A DNA stretch of 64,000 nucleotides, taken from the NCBI RefSeq assembly GCF_001412595.2, contig NZ_CP012640.2, positions 4,278,001-4,342,000 on the forward strand, read 5' to 3'. Under the pieces are notes generated by a model that saw only the letters and a list, made by a program, of their open reading frames with translations, was not told the origin of the DNA and made no database searches. The stretch comes from Massilia sp. WG5. GTDB taxonomy: Bacteria > Pseudomonadota > Gammaproteobacteria > Burkholderiales > Burkholderiaceae_D. Position numbers and translations under genes: made by a program. Numbering within the stretch: the stretch's first letter is position 1; the number at the start of each line of letters is the position of its first letter. Of the stretch, positions 15,121 to 25,189 are shown one piece after another.

Positions 15121-15327
15121 TTACTCCCGCCAGTCTTCCTGCAAGGCGCGGATCGCCGCCTCGCCATTGCGGATCGCCTTCACGCGGCGCACGATTTCGT
15201 TACGCCAGACTTCGTCGGCGTCCTGCTCCGCTTCGTCGCTATCGGTCAGCAGCAATTGCATGAGTTCATGCTTTTCCGATGCGGAAAGTTGCTGGATCTG
15301 TGCGGCCAGTTCGGCGACGGTGGACAT
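15121..15327 (-). CDS. Addiction-module antitoxin-like protein, no toxin partner
   Basis: A 68-aa acidic protein (MSTVAELAAQIQQLSASEKH...) with the pattern of the putative addiction-module component family (TIGR02574): a helical N-terminus with LSASEKHELMQLLL, then VWRNEIVRRVKAIRNGEAAI. In typical loci a RelE/ParE toxin gene follows directly. Here the stop is followed within 45 bp by a terminator, and no toxin ORF is present on this strand. It may be an orphan antitoxin left after toxin loss or may act with a toxin elsewhere. The family assignment is from pattern alone. Confidence 0.65.
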   Translation of the reverse strand: MSTVAELAAQIQQLSASEKHELMQLLLTDSDEAEQDADEVWRNEIVRRVKAIRNGEAAIRALQEDWRE

Positions 15328-15373: not shown

Positions 15374-18300
15374 TTAATGCATGTCGACAGCCATCATATT
15401 ATCCGTTGGTTTCCTGTCGATCAGCTTGTTGTCGGGGTCGATCCCGGCGCGCGCCGGGCGGCCGTCGACCACCAGCGTGACCGTCTGGGCGGGGCGTTCG
15501 ACCAGGCGGCGCTCACGGGCCAGGGGATTGCCGTTCTCGTCGTCGGCGCCGAACTCGATCCAGTCCTTCAGCGGCACTTCGCGTTCTTCTCCCAGCTCGC
15601 CGGCGCGCACCTTGGCGGCGGTGGCCCGGATCGTCACTTCGTACTTGCCGTCCGGACGGCGGCGCGCGACGGCGCTGTCGACCCGGTTCCCGTACAGGAC
15701 GATGGAGTCGAACAGGTCGTCGATCAGGTAGGCCTTGTCCGGGGGCGCGATCGCGCGCAGCTTCCCGACCAGGGCAGCGACGGTCGGGTAGGGCGGCCCG
15801 CGGAAGGCATGCTCGGCGAGGAACTGGCGCAGCACGCCGTTCACGGCATCCTCGCCGAGCAGGTCCTGCAGCAGGTACATCGCCAGGCTGCCCTTGCGGT
15901 AGTGGATATAGGGCTGGTCCTCGTTCTCCGCCAGCGGCAGCTCCTTCCTGGTCTCCAGGGCGCGGCCCATCAGGTATTCCTCGAGGTCGTAGCGCAGGAA
16001 GCGCCGCATCTTGCTGGAGCCGACCGTGCGCTTCATCGTCATCAGCGCCGTGTACTCGGCCAGGCTTTCGGACAGCACGGTGGCGCCGCGGCTGTCGGCG
16101 CCGACCAGCTGGTGCGCCCACCATTGGTGCCCGACCTCGTGCGCCGTGACGTAGAAGGGGTAGTCGATGTCCTTGCGCGACTCCGGATCGACCTTGGCGA
16201 TGAAGCCGGCGCTCTCGGAAAACGCGATCACGCCCGGCGCCGCCTGCGCATAGCTGGCATAGCGCGGGAACTCGGCGATGCGCAGCTCGCGGTGCTGGTA
16301 GGGGCCGAACTGCTTCGAACCGTATTCGAGGGCGGCCTTGGCGCCGCCGATCATGCGGTCGACGTTGAAGTCGTGGCCCGGCTGGTAGTAGACGTCGATC
16401 GTCACGTCCTGCCAGCGGTCGTGCCGCACTTCATAGCGCGCCGACTGGAAGGTGGTGAAGTTCAGGATCGGCCTGTCCATCCGGTAGTGGAAGTAGTGGC
16501 GGCCCTTGGCCATCCATTCGCTGTCGAGGGTGCCGGGCGCCACCGCGATCTGGTCCAGCGAGGTGCTGACCACGGCGTCGAAGCGGATCCAGTCGGCGTC
16601 GCTGCCGAGGTAGTTGTTGGCGCGCGCGGCCTCGTCATCGCGCGCCGCCATGCGCTCCTTCGGCGCCAGGCCGTGGCGCTTGCGGTCGCGGTCGTCCTTC
16701 AGCTCGAAGCTGTGCTGGTAACCGACGTGGGGCAGGATGGCGTTGCTGAAGAAGGTGCCGTTGGCCACCACCGCCGTCTCGCGGCCCAGGCCGAGCACGC
16801 CGCCGGGGGCATCCTCGAGTTCGAATTCGAGGGCGATGCGCGCGCCCGGCGCGATCGGCGTCACCAAGGCATAGCGATAGAAGCCGCGTTGCGTGTCGGC
16901 CGCCAGCAGGCGCACCGCTTGCGAGAAGCGCGGACGCAGGGCCGGGCCGGGCTGCTGGGTCAGGAACAGCTCCGCGATCGGCGCGCCGCTGCGGTTCTCG
17001 AGCTGGTAGGCCCCCTTCACCTTCAGGGTGCGGCTGGCGGGCATGATGTCGACCCGCAGGTCGACGTTCGTGATGCGCGGCTGCGGCAGCTTCGCATAGC
17101 GGCGGTAGCGCAGTTCGTATTCGGCGTGCAGGCGGTCCCTGGTCCAGGCGGACTGGTAGGCGCCCAGGTGCTCGAGGTTGTACCAGAGCAGCAGCCCGCT
17201 GCCGGCGAACAGCAGCGCGCCCAGGCCGAAGGCGCCCAGTACGCCCGGCGTCAGGCGCTGGCGCGCGAGCTGCAGGCGGTCCCTGAAGCGGTCGGCCACG
17301 CCGCGCGGCCACAGCACCAGCGCGGCCGTCAGCAGCACCAGCGCGGCGCCGCCCCAGTACACCAGCAGCGCGCGCTGCAGCGCCAGGTAGTGGCCGAAGC
17401 CGTTCATCGCCGAATAGGTCACGTCCGGCAGCGCGCCGTACAGCAGCATCGGATGGTCCAGGCCGAGCGAGCCGAGGGTGATGCTGGCGATGTAGTAGAG
17501 CACCAGCACGAAGTAGCCGAGGTATTTGTGGTCGAGGATGGCCTGCACCGCGATCGCCAGCACCGCGATCAGCACATATTTGGGCAGCAGCACGCCGAAC
17601 AGCGTGAACAGGTACAGGCCCGGCTCCAGCGCCACATAGCCGCGGAACAGCTGGATCAGCATCCCGCACACCATCGCCACCAGCAGCAGCACGGCCTGCA
17701 GGCCGACCAGGGCCAGGGTCTTGGCGGCCAGCGGCAGCCAGCTCGGCACCGGCAGCGCGTCCAGCATCAGGGCCATGCGCGCTTCGCGCTCGCGCCAGAC
17801 CATCTCGCCGGCATAGAAGGTGGTGACGATCAGCAGGAACAGCGCGAACACGTCGCGGATCAGGTCCAGCACCATGTAGGTGACCGGATAGGTGGTGGTG
17901 CCGTAGATTGCGCCCAGGTCGAAGGAGCTGACCACCAGCACCAGCACGCCGGCCAGCGCGATCACGGCGAAGTAGATGTTCTTGACCGATTCTCGCAGGT
18001 CGAGCCAGGCCGACTTCAGGAGCAGCAGGCCGAGGTTGCGGGCGGCGAAGTCGGGTTCTTCGCGGGTGTCGGCGGCCGGCTGGGCGGCGGCCGCGGTTTC
18101 GCCCTCGCCGCGCGCGGCCGCGCGCCGGGTGGCGGCGGTGGACATGAAGCTGAAGCGCCAGTAGCCGAGCAGCAGCACCACCAGCGAGAAGGCCGACCAG
18201 ATCAGGCGGTTCGCCAGGTAGACGCCTTCGAACGGTACCAGGCGCGCATTGCGCTCGGCGACGGACCAGTATTCGGTCAGGCGGATCAGGGCGGTGGTGC

Positions 18301-18952
18301 CAAAGGGATCGATCAGCGCCGCCAGCGTCTTGTAGTCGAGGTCGCGCGCCAGCGAAGGCGCCACCAGGTAGCCGATCATCATCACCACGCCGGCCACGTA
18401 CACCGGCAGCATGCGCCGCGTGAGGGCGGCCAGCACGAAGAAGATGGCGCCGAAGATGAACAGGTTGGGCAGCAGGGTCAGGAAGTAGGGCGCCAGGTAG
18501 GCCAGGGCCTTGAATGGCCCGACGCGCGAGGGGTCGACCCCCGGCAGCAGCGCGCCCAGCAGGTTGCCCAGCACGATCGAGGAGTACACCACGGCCATCG
18601 TCGCCAGCGCGCCCAGGAAGCGCCCGAACACGTAGGCGTATTTCGGGATCGGCGCGCTGAAGAAGAAGTGATGGGTCTCGTATTCGAAATCCTGCTGCAC
18701 CGAGCGGCCCATCATGGCGGCCGCCACCACGATGCCGAAGCAGCCCAGGAAGGCGGCGGACAGCGCCACCTGGCGCGGGCCGTTGACCAGCACCCGGCCG
18801 CCGAAGGAGATCGTGATGTCCTTGAAGGCGCCGCCGGCGGCCGCCACCCAGAACATCGCCAGCGCCAGGAAGGAGAAAAAATAAATCCAGGTCGAGAGCA
18901 GCTTCAGGCGCTGCCGGGCTTCGAACAGCGCGATGGCGTAGAGCGCGCGCAT
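15374..18952 (-). CDS. ABC-2 type permease fused to an M1-family aminopeptidase
   Basis: A 1192-aa inner-membrane protein. Residues ~1-280 and ~340-600 are two ABC-2-like permease blocks with many hydrophobic segments (start [20 protein letters not shown]). After another transmembrane segment near 620 comes a soluble region with an M1 zinc-peptidase site: HEVGH (His938, Glu939, His942) and the third ligand in LSESLAEY (Glu962). The gap between HExxH and that Glu is 19 residues, one more than the usual M1 gap of 18, and the GxMEN motif is replaced by a GVIAFSE segment. Its ATG lies 4 bp after the stop of the ATPase gene. The peptidase should face the periplasm if an odd number of segments precedes it. 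Function and substrate are unknown. Confidence 0.9.
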
Positions 18953-18956
18953 GAAC

Positions 18957-19850
18957 TCAGCAGTTCCCCGCGGCCGCGTTGTGGCGGCCGGCGATGGTGG
19001 CGAAATAGACGTCTTCGAGGGTCGGGTGGATCGGCTCGAAGTCGTCGCCCGGATAGCGCTCGGCATACACGTGGATCATCGGGCGCCCGCTCAAGAGGCG
19101 GGTCGAGATGACCGTGTGGCGCTTCTGGAAGGCGACCAGCTCGGGCTTGCTGACGAAGCGCGCCCAGATCCGGCCTTCGATGCCTTCGATGAGCTTCGCC
19201 GGTTCGCCGCACAGCAGCACGTGGCCCTTGTTGATGATCGCCATATTGGCGCACAGGTCGGCGACGTCGGACACGATGTGGGTGGACAGGATCACGGTCT
19301 TGTCCTGGCCGATGTCGGACAGCAGGTTGTGGAAGCGCACCCGTTCCTGCGGGTCGAGGCCGGCGGTCGGCTCGTCGACGATGATCAGCTGCGGGTCGCC
19401 CAGCAGGGCCTGGGCGATGCCGAAGCGCTGCTTCATGCCGCCCGAGAAGGTGCCGAGGCGCTGGTCGCGCACCTCGAACAGATTGGTCTGTTGCAGGAGG
19501 CCGTCGACCACTTCGCGGCGCCGCGCACGGTTCGCCAGGCCCTTCAGCTGGGCGAAATGATCGAGTAATTCATAAGCGCTCACTTTCGGGTAGACCCCGA
19601 AATCCTGCGGCAGGTAGCCGAGCAGGCGGCGCACTTCATCCTTGTCGTCGAGGACATCGATATCGTCCAGGAACACGGAACCGGAATCGCATTCCTGCAG
19701 GGTCGCCAGGATCCGCATCAGGGTCGACTTGCCGGCGCCGTTCGGGCCGAGCAGGCCGAACATCCCGGGCGGAATGCTCAGCGTGACCCCGTCCAGCGCT
19801 ACCACGCCATTGGCGTAGGTCTTGGACAGGTTGCGGATTTCTAGTTCCAT
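18957..19850 (-). CDS. ABC transporter ATP-binding protein, partner of the permease-peptidase
   Basis: A 297-aa ATPase with Walker [10 protein letters not shown] (~35-43), signature FSGGMKQR, Walker [13 protein letters not shown] and the H-loop STH. The last ~80 residues form a C-terminal extension usual in ABC-2 exporter ATPases. ATG 19850 ([15 protein letters not shown]) is chosen; the frame upstream to 19925 lacks family similarity. The stop lies 4 bp before the permease-M1 start, so the two form an operon and presumably one complex at the inner membrane. Confidence 0.93.
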
Positions 19851-21652: not shown

Positions 21653-22837
21653 TTACACGGACAACACGTAGCGTTCGCTCTTCATGCGCCAGCTGGCGAA
21701 GCCGATCGCCAGCAAGGCGCCCAGCGCCGAGCAGGCGAAGGTCAGCAGGAAGGGCAGGGCGCCGACCTCGCCGCCCTTGGCCATTTCGCGCAGCAGGGTC
21801 TGGTTCGACAGCATCGGCACCATGTACATCCAGGTCGCCGTCTTGATCTCCATCATCGACACCACCACCCCGGGAATCAGCGGCACCAGCATCACGAAGC
21901 TGAGGATGCTCTGCGCTTCCTTGAAGGACCTGGCGTTCATCGCCAGCGCCACCTGCAGGCCGGCGGCGAACAGGCACAGCGGCAAGGAGGCGATGCAGAT
22001 CAGCGCCAGGTCGGCCCAGTTCAGGCTCCAGGACATGCCGATCTCTTCCAGCGGCAGCCAGGACAGGATCGCGTGCGCCAGCGTCAGTTCGAGGGTGACG
22101 CCGACGATCGCCAGGGAGGCCGCGCACAGCCACTTGCCGACCACCAGCTCCCAGGCGCGGATCGGCTGCGCCATCAGCACTTCCATCGAGCGGCGTTCGC
22201 GCTCGCCGGCGGTGCTGTCGACGGCGGTCGACATGCCGCAGATGAAGACCGGCAGGAACAGCACGCCGAGGATGCTGCCGATCAGGACCGCCGAGCGCGA
22301 GGCATTGGTGCCGGTATCGAAGCGCTGCAGCTGGATCGGCGACAGCGTCGCCGGCGAGACCCCGTGCGCCAGCAGGCGCGCGCTGGCGACGTTGGCGCCG
22401 TAAGCCTCGAGCAGGTCTTCGATGTCCTTGCGCTGCTTGCCGTTTTCGTCGGCCGAGTCGTACCACAGCTCGATGCGGGCCGGGCGCATCGCCGCGTAGT
22501 TCTCGGTGAATTTGTCGGACAGGCGCAGCACCGCCGGATAGGCGCGCGTCTGCAGCAGCGCGGCGATGCCGGCCTCGTCGAGCGGCCCCGGATCCTTGAC
22601 GTTGACGTTGCGCTGCTTGAGCTGGGCCATCAGCGTGGGCGCCTGGCTGGCGCCGATCACGGCGATCTCGACGCCGTCGCGCTCCGGCTTGGTGGCGCGC
22701 TTGATTTCGTGGTCCAGCAGGTAGCCGAGCATCAACGGGTACATCAGGGTGAACAGCGCCAGCAGGCCGAGGGTGCGCTTTTCGCGCAGGGTCTCGCGCA
22801 GCTCTTTGAGGTAGACGATCAGGAACTTCGGCTTCAT
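21653..22837 (-). CDS. ABC-2 type permease (NatB-like)
   Basis: A 394-aa inner-membrane protein with one transmembrane helix near 25-45, a large extracytoplasmic loop (~50-185) and about five helices in the C-terminal half. The segment around ERERRSMEVLMAQPI is characteristic of NatB/ABC-2 permeases, which export sodium ions or other solutes. Its ATG overlaps the natA-like stop as ATGA, so the subunits are translationally coupled. The substrate is not predictable. Confidence 0.9.
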   Translation of the reverse strand: MKPKFLIVYLKELRETLREKRTLGLLALFTLMYPLMLGYLLDHEIKRATKPERDGVEIAVIGASQAPTLMAQLKQRNVNVKDPGPLDEAGIAALLQTRAYPAVLRLSDKFTENYAAMRPARIELWYDSADENGKQRKDIEDLLEAYGANVASARLLAHGVSPATLSPIQLQRFDTGTNASRSAVLIGSILGVLFLPVFICGMSTAVDSTAGERERRSMEVLMAQPIRAWELVVGKWLCAASLAIVGVTLELTLAHAILSWLPLEEIGMSWSLNWADLALICIASLPLCLFAAGLQVALAMNARSFKEAQSILSFVMLVPLIPGVVVSMMEIKTATWMYMVPMLSNQTLLREMAKGGEVGALPFLLTFACSALGALLAIGFASWRMKSERYVLSV

Positions 22838-23568
22838 GCGGAGATTCCTTCTTCGGTGCCGACCAGGCTGACGAAGGCGTCTTCCAGGTTGGCGATGCCG
22901 GTGCGGCGGCACAGTTCATCGGGCGCGCCCTGGGCCACGGTATGGCCTTTGGCAATGACGATCACGTCGTCGCAGAGCTGGGTCACTTCCTGCATCACGT
23001 GGGTCGCCATGATCACGCAGCAGCCGTCGGCGCGCAGCGCAGCCAGGGCCTGGCGCAGGGCCCGGGTACTCATCACGTCGAGCCCGCGGCTCGGTTCGTC
23101 CAGAAGCAGGTGGCGCGGGCGGTGCAGCAGGGTGCGCGCCAGCGCGACCTTGATGCGCTGGCCCTGCGAGAAGCCTTTCGCGCGGCGCTCCAGGATGTCG
23201 TCCATCTGCAGCAGCGCGGACACTTCCTCGATGCGTCGGCGCAGGGTCGGCCCGTCCATGCCGTTCAGCTCACCGAAATAGCTCAGGTATTCGCGTGTGC
23301 TGAGACGCTCGTACAGCCCGAACTGGTCGGTCAGGAAGCCGATGTTCCGGCGCACCGTCAGCGGATCCTTTTCCGGATCGACGCCGTCGACGGCGATCCT
23401 GCCGTGGTCGCGCCTGAGCAGCCCGACCAGGGTGCGCAGGAGGGTGGTCTTGCCGGCGCCGTTAGGGCCGAGCAGGGCGGTGATGTGGCCGTCGCGCGCG
23501 GTGAAACTGACGCCGCCGAGCGCCTGCACGGCGCCGAACTGCTTGCGTACTTCGTGGACTTCGATCAT
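22834..23568 (-). CDS. ABC transporter ATP-binding protein (NatA-like)
   Basis: A 244-aa ATPase with Walker A GPNGAGKTT, a signature of FSQGQRIKVALAR type, Walker B LLLDEPSRGLD and H-loop ATHVMQE. It pairs with the NatB-like permease, overlapping it by 4 bp. The hydrolase gene upstream ends 12 bp before its start, so the three genes form one operon. Confidence 0.93.
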   Translation of the reverse strand: MIEVHEVRKQFGAVQALGGVSFTARDGHITALLGPNGAGKTTLLRTLVGLLRRDHGRIAVDGVDPEKDPLTVRRNIGFLTDQFGLYERLSTREYLSYFGELNGMDGPTLRRRIEEVSALLQMDDILERRAKGFSQGQRIKVALARTLLHRPRHLLLDEPSRGLDVMSTRALRQALAALRADGCCVIMATHVMQEVTQLCDDVIVIAKGHTVAQGAPDELCRRTGIANLEDAFVSLVGTEEGISA

Positions 23569-23580
23569 GGCAGGCTCGAT

Positions 23581-25029
23581 TCAGGGTTGCGGCCCGGCGC
23601 TGCCGAGCTGGAAGGTCGGGGCCGGAATCTCGGCCAGGCACTTGCCGTCGAGCGGGCTGGCCGGGCGGTCGAGGAACTCGCGCAGCAGGCGCGGCGCGCA
23701 GCCCAGCTGCGAGACGCCGTGGCCGGCGTTCGCCACCACCAGCTGCTGCGCATGGGCCATGTGGCGGGCGGCGCTTTGGGCGCGGCGCGGCGGCGTCACC
23801 GGATCGAGGGCCCCGGACAGCAGCAGCGCCGGGGCCTGGATCGTCGTCGGCTCGGTGGCCGGCACGGCCGGCACGGAAAGCGTCTTGCACAGGGTCGGGA
23901 TGCGGTCGGCCAGTGGCCGCGTGAGCAGCGAGCTCTCCTCCTTCATCAGCGCCGGCGTCATGCGCGGCACGTCCTCGGCGCAGACCACGGCCAGGTGCAG
24001 CAGGACCGCGCTGGAAGCGTCGCTGGAAAAGTCGTCGGCGATGTTATGGCGGGCGATGAAGGGCTCCCACCGTCCCTGGTAGGCGCTGTGGATCAGGAAA
24101 GGCAGGCGGCGGGCGTCGGCCGGCGAGTACAGGATGTTGTGCACGGTGCCGAGGAAGCGCGGGCTGGTCATCGTGAAGCTCACCGGCTGGGCGGTGCGGG
24201 GATCGGCTATCGACAGCTTCAGGCCGGCCCCGGCGCGCGCGGCCAGGGTCTCGAATTCGCTGCGCAGGTTCGGGTAGGCCTTGTGGCAGGCGGCATCGCG
24301 CTCGCACTGGGCGAACAGCTTGTCGAGCGCAGCCTGGCCGTCGCGGCCGCCGGCCGGAATCACCTGGTCCGGCGCGGCCACGCCGTCCAGCACCAGGCTG
24401 CGTACCTGGTCCGGGAAGGCGCGCGCATAGGCCTGGCCGAGGCGGGTGCCGTAGGATCCGCCCCAAACATTGATCTTGCCGTAGCCGAGCGCGCGGCGCA
24501 CCTGGTCGATGTCGCGCGCGGCGGCGGCGGTGGTGTAGGCGGCAAAGGGAACGCGTTTGGCGCCGATGCAGCGGCGCAGCTCGGCTTCGAGCTCGGCGTC
24601 GCTCATGGTCTCTTCGTTGGGCGGGCTGTCGCAATCGAGCTTGCCCGACAGGCCGGTGCCGCGCTGGTCGATGAAGACGATGTCGCGGGTGGCGCGCACG
24701 CGCTTGAACGCGGCCGACAGCAGCGGCAGCACGTCGCTGCCGGCCTGGCCGGGGCCGCCGGCCAGCACGAACAGCGGATCGGGCCGGGCCGACTCGCGGA
24801 AGGCCTGCGCCACGGTCACGTGCAGCTTCAGGCTGCCGGCGCCGGCGTTGGCGTAGTCGAGCGGGACTGGAACGGACAGGCAGCGCAGCGTTTCCTCGGC
24901 GCCGGGCAGGTGGCAGTTGCGGGCCACGGGTTTGCCGGCTGGCGCGGCGTCGGGAGCAGCGCCAGCGCCGGACGCTGTTGCCGAGCACAGCAGGGCAAAC
25001 AGGGCGGACAGGATCGGACGGGTTTTCAC
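23581..25029 (-). CDS. Exported alpha/beta-hydrolase, TAP-like peptidase type
   Basis: A 482-aa hydrolase. It has a signal peptide (VKTRPILSALFALLCSATAS, cleavage near residue 24), an alpha/beta fold with the oxyanion motif LAGGPGQAG, DQRGTGLSG, the nucleophile in GGSYGTRLG, and a C-terminal TAP-like region with the catalytic Asp and His (GALDPVTPP, NAGHGVSQ). This suits a periplasmic prolyl/tripeptidyl aminopeptidase-type enzyme. I chose GTG 25029: GAGGAGA precedes it and the promoter at 25054-25083 overlaps the upstream ATGs. It is the first gene of an operon with the NatAB-like transporter; the link between them is unknown. Confidence 0.9.
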   Translation of the reverse strand: MKTRPILSALFALLCSATASGAGAAPDAAPAGKPVARNCHLPGAEETLRCLSVPVPLDYANAGAGSLKLHVTVAQAFRESARPDPLFVLAGGPGQAGSDVLPLLSAAFKRVRATRDIVFIDQRGTGLSGKLDCDSPPNEETMSDAELEAELRRCIGAKRVPFAAYTTAAAARDIDQVRRALGYGKINVWGGSYGTRLGQAYARAFPDQVRSLVLDGVAAPDQVIPAGGRDGQAALDKLFAQCERDAACHKAYPNLRSEFETLAARAGAGLKLSIADPRTAQPVSFTMTSPRFLGTVHNILYSPADARRLPFLIHSAYQGRWEPFIARHNIADDFSSDASSAVLLHLAVVCAEDVPRMTPALMKEESSLLTRPLADRIPTLCKTLSVPAVPATEPTTIQAPALLLSGALDPVTPPRRAQSAARHMAHAQQLVVANAGHGVSQLGCAPRLLREFLDRPASPLDGKCLAEIPAPTFQLGSAGPQP

Positions 25030-25053
25030 GGTGTCTCCTCTTCGATGCTGACC

Positions 25054-25083
25054 ATAGTAGTTTGTCATTCTTTTGGCGGTCAA
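25054..25083 (-). promoter_or_regulatory. Promoter of the hydrolase-natAB operon
   Basis: Minus strand: TTGACC (25083-25078), 18-bp spacer, TACTAT (25059-25054), about 25 bp before the GTG. It rules out the upstream ATG starts. Confidence 0.6.
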
Positions 25084-25189
25084 CAAATAGTTGCAAATAT
25101 GCATTAACTCTTGAATCAGGGTGGGCTTGATTGAAGCGGGTTTGCGTTGCCTCTAGCGGGAATTTGTGTGGATATGCGCCCAGGCTGAC

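Follow-up and report, generated by a model that had tools for sequence, protein, structure and literature searches.

A gene pair of Massilia sp. WG5 raises the question of what an ABC transporter would do with a peptidase built into its own permease. The pair lies in a stretch of 64,000 nucleotides (contig NZ_CP012640.2, positions 4,278,001 to 4,342,000, of a 6.2 Mb genome in three contigs), hereafter the window, and all features described below are encoded on its minus strand at the window positions given. The upstream gene (18957..19850) encodes an ABC ATPase of 297 amino acids, assigned as the partner nucleotide-binding domain from its motifs (Walker A GPNGAGKS, signature FSGGM and Walker B IIVDEP) and from the recurrence of a relative upstream of the fusion among the loci compared, while the downstream gene (15374..18952, with a TAA stop codon at 15376-15374) encodes an ABC-2 permease fused to an M1-fold peptidase. 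The reading preferred here, at a probability of about 0.4, is that of a type V ABC exporter (NosY/PmtCD/ABCA-like) handing its substrate to a C-terminal periplasmic, non-classical metallopeptidase of the M1 fold. This reading is based on the anatomy and conservation of the site, on its repeated and focused loss and on the loss of the permease residue Thr352 along with it, taken together with predicted folds and a predicted topology. The architecture itself already carries a name in databases, and what is new is the repeated loss of the site in orthologues from the same genus.

An earlier note on this DNA had described a 1192-amino-acid chain joining two ABC-2 permease blocks to an M1 site with HExxH-x19-E and no GxMEN motif. 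This anatomy was confirmed by the frame 18952-15374, by Pfam and by an AlphaFold model, to which a 13th helix (residues 569-595) and the canonical catalytic tyrosine, Tyr1018, can be added. Peptidase_M1 (PF01433) matched residues 873-1051 with 44.1 bits against a cut-off of 27.7, the two ABC-2 blocks fell slightly below their cut-offs (26.2 versus 27 and 18.1 versus 27.2), and the Pfam scan of the fusion returned no domain beyond M1 and ABC-2, and so none for the helical domain IV of M1 enzymes. By homology, the HEVGH motif (residues 938-942; 16127..16141) would provide two zinc ligands and the general base Glu939, Glu962 (16067..16069) would be the third ligand, at x19 and not at the usual x18, and Tyr1018 (15899..15901) aligned opposite the M1 tyrosine of ERAP2, which we take to be catalytic. 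In the same alignment, Glu962 matched the canonical glutamate after a one-residue insertion by His947 (16112..16114; WWAHQ versus WFGN), and the sequence YAQAA (residues 901-905; 16238..16252) was placed by HMMER opposite GAMEN.

The spacing was then compared across 127 loci, a count that excludes two partial matches of ~300 bits (L138 and L139) and in which some loci repeat one genome. The glutamate stands at x19 in all 124 loci that keep HExxH, the motif being gone from the peptidase part of the other three (L036, L037 and L063), while the eight other M1 proteins of this genome all have x18. The residues H938, E939, H942, H947, E962, Y1018 and K1020 were invariant over 68 aligned rows, and the set H938/E939/H942/E962/Y1018 was whole in 235 of 240 listed proteins. 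Because of the 124 concordant loci and the invariant site residues, the x19 spacing with its extra residue is, judged from sequence, a fixed design of the family and not a fault or a chance arrangement; described in the earlier note for this protein as an altered spacing, it is a trait of a named, multi-phylum family.

In classical M1 aminopeptidases, GxMEN supplies the amine-binding glutamate and domain IV caps the active site. GxMEN was found in none of the 127 loci, no acidic stand-in is evident and domain IV is gone, so that classical aminopeptidase activity appears unlikely for the fusion. Glu894 and Glu913 were considered as replacements for the GxMEN glutamate and rejected, since both are kept in 37/37 same-genus orthologues, including those with a broken site, and so look structural.

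An orthologue was present in every one of 37 same-genus genomes, at 57-100% identity and in one case truncated where its contig stops, and 29 of these were intact at H938/E939/H942/E962/Y1018. The remaining eight (L036, L037 and L140-L145) were broken: His938 and Tyr1018 were both lost in 8/8, His947 was changed in seven, and Lys1020 was retained. A tree built by a quick method placed at least three losses, in a six-member clade, in L142 and in L145, and a fourth lineage was given by P0057 (Tyr1018 to His, His947 to Gln), which a second tree places amid site-intact relatives. Departures at the site were likewise seen in P0055 (Tyr1018 to His) and in P0153, P0204 and P0230, all among the 240 listed proteins; P0230, of a broken-site type reading WSQDR, and P0166 are also relatives without a precomputed M1 Pfam match. 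L063, which carries E939A with the other checked site residues kept and lies at a metagenome contig edge, was treated as unsafe.

The possibility that the broken copies are pseudogenes was rejected, as the frame is open over its full length in seven of the eight and is interrupted in L143 by the end of the contig. An open ATPase frame adjoins all seven broken copies with upstream DNA (L143 has none), the signature-motif pattern being unmatched in that of L142. For the peptidase part, the ratio of nonsynonymous to synonymous substitution rates (dN/dS) was 0.21, 0.36, 0.45 and 0.37 in four pairs of broken proteins, 0.05-0.48 in 11 intact pairs, and 0.32 and 0.57 in two broken/intact pairs. The broken peptidase domains are still constrained.

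The footprint of the loss was studied in 144 conserved columns, defined as those shared by all 29 intact proteins of the genus and by at least 90% of 67 others. One alignment (A2) comprised 59 of the 80 loci of the species-genome scan described below, picked for spread; L063 was left out, and L108 and L116 were dropped because of stops in their matched ranges. All eight broken proteins left 107 of the 144 columns unaltered, and 17 were altered in at least five of them, 16 in the peptidase (F734, M867, I892, F895, Y898, S912, G916, H938, E939, H942, H947, E962, F985, Q1013, Y1015 and Y1018) and one, Thr352, in the permease. Nine columns (T352, F734, F895, Y898, G916, H938, H942, H947 and Y1018) show the change in both L142 and L145 as well as in three or more clade members. 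Random sets of eight intact proteins gave at most one such column in 200 draws, and two sets of eight near relatives gave two, both in the permease, and none. The decay is thus focused on the catalytic centre. The only acidic residues among the 17 columns are E939 and E962, and thus no stand-in for the amine-binding glutamate of GxMEN shows; Glu1000 and Asp787, altered in six and five of the broken proteins respectively, were given no part, being unaltered in L142 and L145.

Thr352 lies in the sequence YGTTTYP of a putative periplasmic loop 4 of the permease (residues 346-357; 17882..17917). It was altered in 8/8 broken orthologues, to Ala and once to Ile, and to Ala in P0057. Among 276 distinct sequences, counted as distinct strings of open frames so that one protein may count twice and some loci repeat one genome, Thr352 was present in 255 of the 265 with an intact site and missing from nine of the 11 with a broken one. 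Read simply, loop 4 would border, or belong to, the peptidase site, and Thr352 offers a concrete prediction of how the two parts of the chain come together. A putative periplasmic loop 6 (residues 497-521; 17390..17464), whose Y513, S514, N517 and G520 were invariant over the same 68 rows, may border the site too. The intact, half-decayed and dead sites within one genus form a natural series in which the role of the fused peptidase for the pump is directly testable.

The AlphaFold model of the fusion (pLDDT 88.7) showed an M1 fold at about residues 613-1188 (15389..17116) preceded by a NosY/ABCA-like permease (residues 1-595; 17168..18952), the latter also drawn from fold matches and hydropathy. 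Two permease halves of six helices each (1-266 and 304-547) are predicted, followed by the 13th helix leading to the periplasm. Thirteen helices are predicted and the positive-inside count is modestly in favour, so that the peptidase is probably on the periplasmic side, just outside the inner membrane. The earlier note had named two outcomes as contrary to its proposal, a third ligand out of reach of the zinc and a peptidase facing the cytoplasm without a conserved site in homologues; neither was seen, although the zinc geometry itself was not measured. The M1-fold domain comprises domains I-III and closes in beta strands, with no domain IV over the active site; PepN (2gtq) aligned with it only up to PepN residue 541 of 864. 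Glu962 begins a modelled helix (962-977), the place that the third ligand takes in M1 enzymes. By VIA-align, the top match of permease half 1 was NosY and half 2 has a PmtCD-like fold, with ABCA4 also matched.

An ATPase relative lies within 600 bases upstream of the fusion in 76 of 78 testable species-scan loci (the exceptions being L076 and L089), in 36/36 testable same-genus orthologues, in 5/5 paralogous loci and in 17/17 phylum loci; L063 and L079 of the scan and L143 of the same genus were too short to be counted. The adjacent ATPase with intact motifs and the permease fold of the model are as in type V (ABC-2) exporters. The ORFs of at least 60 amino acids around the 80 scan loci were clustered, and outside the Oxalobacteraceae (54 loci) the ATPase alone recurs widely (43 loci). 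The next clusters look like antisense or wrong-frame readings of the ATPase, and the other listed clusters reach at most five loci. No periplasmic target gene recurs beside the fusion in this set, and no regulator does so widely. A conserved gene for a small exported peptide, which the earlier note had thought worth seeking nearby, was not found family-wide at this length, shorter ORFs (<60 amino acids) lying outside the clustering.

One interpretation of these data, and the preferred one, is an exporter that passes its substrate on for cleavage. Two copies of the ATPase, suggested by the single gene alongside a permease of two halves, would drive a 12-helix pseudo-dimer, and the 13th helix would bring the peptidase to its periplasmic mouth, where loop 4 and perhaps loop 6 would border the active site. 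A peptide or lipopeptide, the likeliest kind of substrate, would leave the cytoplasm or the membrane and then be cut in the periplasm, and without GxMEN and a capping domain IV the enzyme probably acts on longer, blocked or internal sites. Even with no cutting, binding and transport could continue, which would make repeated loss of the site possible. The direction of transport, the kind of substrate, cleavage and a composite site are what we infer from these observations. The last of these, put forward tentatively, would have permease loops complete the M1 centre so that the exporter hands its substrate straight to the zinc, some Massilia lineages having repeatedly become pumps with a dead, binding-only peptidase and Thr352 having been released each time.

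Several observations weigh against the exporter–peptidase interpretation. In the first tree a single clade accounts for six of the eight broken proteins, and the column counts are therefore not eight independent cases. Thr352 is missing from 10 of the 265 site-intact sequences, which are 31-42% identical to the fusion, and is kept in two of the 11 broken ones (P0055 and L063). The highest peptidase dN/dS, 0.57, belongs to the broken/intact pair L142/L146 (permease 0.52), which suggests that constraint was relaxed on that branch, and all dN/dS values are simple NG86 estimates on GC-rich genes. A paralogue of 38-40% identity occurs in four of the eight broken-site genomes (10 of 29 intact ones, at 37-40%), so that loss of the site could be covered there. 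No neighbour other than the ATPase recurs widely outside the Oxalobacteraceae, and hence nothing points to a single exported peptide.

The best-placed alternative, though judged unlikely, is mechanotransmission, in which ATP hydrolysis would reshape the periplasmic M1 domain to remodel, extract or trim envelope proteins or peptides while nothing crosses the membrane. Such a mechanism has been proposed for NosDFY, MacB and FtsEX, and it would suit both the best match of permease half 1 to NosY, a permease serving a periplasmic partner, and a 576-residue domain fused at the mouth of a transporter with no family-wide exported peptide gene among neighbouring ORFs of at least 60 amino acids. However, the exporters PmtCD and ABCA4 were matched nearly as well as NosY, the top Foldseek match spanning both permease halves was a mycobacterial efflux pump (8k1m-8k1p), and the neighbourhoods held no recurrent periplasmic target.

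Slightly less probable is a role in detoxification, with a pump that expels antimicrobial peptides or lipopeptides, or draws them out of the membrane, their cleavage taking place in the periplasm. The PmtCD-like fold of permease half 2 and a patchy distribution across several phyla without recurring biosynthetic neighbours are consistent with this, and a pump that is kept after cleavage has been lost would be in line with a defence trait; the fusion is nevertheless steadier within the genus (37/37 genomes) than expected of a resistance gene, and no regulator recurs widely beside it. Least probable of all is an M1 domain that mainly binds substrate or serves as structure, so that even an intact motif would mean little or no catalysis. 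In its favour are the lack of GxMEN in all 127 loci, the loss of site residues in eight orthologues and P0057, and the constraint still acting on the broken domains; against it stand the whole catalytic set in 235/240 proteins and the loss of Tyr1018, which is no zinc ligand, together with His938 in 8/8, as selection for catalysis in the intact proteins predicts.

The fusion belongs to the family that bears the National Center for Biotechnology Information (NCBI) name 'ABC transporter permease/M1 family aminopeptidase' on several of its matches. The best 120 of 3070 matches span 96-100% of the query, and the 119 other than the fusion itself have the same length and architecture at 67-93% identity, most of those named by organism being Massilia. 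The difference from the named family lies in the name only, as the lack of GxMEN in all 127 loci makes 'aminopeptidase' doubtful. Of the earlier note's transporter with its own peptidase, the exporter-type permease and M1-fold peptidase in one chain are supported and the aminopeptidase assignment is not. No NCBIfam model of the whole permease/M1 fusion was matched.

A scan of one genome each for 84,980 species gave at least 583 confirmed stretches, so this is a common architecture, yet it carries a name that the sequence does not support. The 80 loci kept from the scan fall, by record titles, in the Oxalobacteraceae, other Burkholderiales, Bacteroidota, Acidobacteriota, Myxococcota, Gemmatimonadota and Ignavibacteria. 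Matches were found in 19/299 genomes of a phylum sample and 6/274 of a class sample, and other families of the same order gave a weak partial match in three of 24 genomes and none in 21. In a plasmid collection, 27 records matched, and in 10 the match covered 80% or more of the query; distant relatives from Pseudoalteromonas (H9-H12) were 21-23% identical, and matches occurred in 14 Zymomonas records. Searching with only the M1 part as query established no stand-alone ancestor among the best 120 of 768 matches, which were mostly pieces on short contigs. A second copy of the fusion, 37-40% identical to the first, was present in 14/37 same-genus genomes; the paralogous loci L031-L035 and L153 were examined, with an ATPase of their own in 5/5 and with L153 split into two frames.

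In keeping with the earlier note, no study of the permease/M1 architecture was found among the matches listed in the open-access full-text literature. The nearest precedent found for export joined to cleavage is the ClbP/ZmaM type of prodrug-activating peptidase, with peptidase and ABC transporter in one chain (PMC9889268). These enzymes have a PF00144 (beta-lactamase-like) peptidase and stand in biosynthetic gene clusters, whereas the fusion has a zinc M1 domain, no Pfam match to PF00144, a separate ATPase gene and no such recurrent cluster. A Legionella transporter was set aside as irrelevant, being of the MacB type (PMC11559062). In NosFY/NosDFY, also a type V ABC system with a periplasmic partner, NosD is a separate protein, while here the M1 domain is attached and each chain holds two permease halves. 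PmtCD, ABCA1/ABCA4 and the mycobacterial pump (8k1m-8k1p) were compared for likeness of the permease, to which the fusion adds a peptidase; to our knowledge, none of them carries one. With PepN, ERAP1/2 and LTA4H the fusion shares the fold of domains I-III, HExxH, the third glutamate and the catalytic tyrosine, and it differs in x19 for x18, in the missing GxMEN and helical domain IV, and in being fused to a permease.

About 50 bases downstream of the fusion gene lies a 68-amino-acid ORF (15121..15327) resembling PF09720 (Unstab_antitox). Of the 36 same-genus loci with downstream DNA (L143 has none), 33 carry it, the exceptions being L024, L026 and L038; it also occurs in four of the 80 scan loci at E 1e-6, and was seen only in Massilia. 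It was not accepted as an exported substrate; it resembles an orphan 'addiction module', with no toxin-like partner among the adjacent listed ORFs of at least 80 amino acids.

The program-made ORF list opens the fusion frame 38 codons too early, within the ATPase gene; the start at 18952 was used, the ATG lying 4 bases past the end of the ATPase frame (19850-18957). Sixteen scan loci out of 80, which their titles all assign to the Oxalobacteraceae, have a further ABC ATPase/permease pair directly upstream of the ATPase-fusion pair (L044, L046-L053, L056, L057, L062, L064, L094, L106 and L118, from Janthinobacterium, Duganella, Rugamonas and others). The window itself holds a second ABC unit at 21653-25104, its near end 1.8 kb upstream of the ATPase, consisting of an S33/TAP-like peptidase, an ATPase and an ABC-2 permease. 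The best NCBIfam match of this permease, below cut-off, was a permease/CPBP-protease fusion, and peptidase and ABC exporter are thus found side by side once more.

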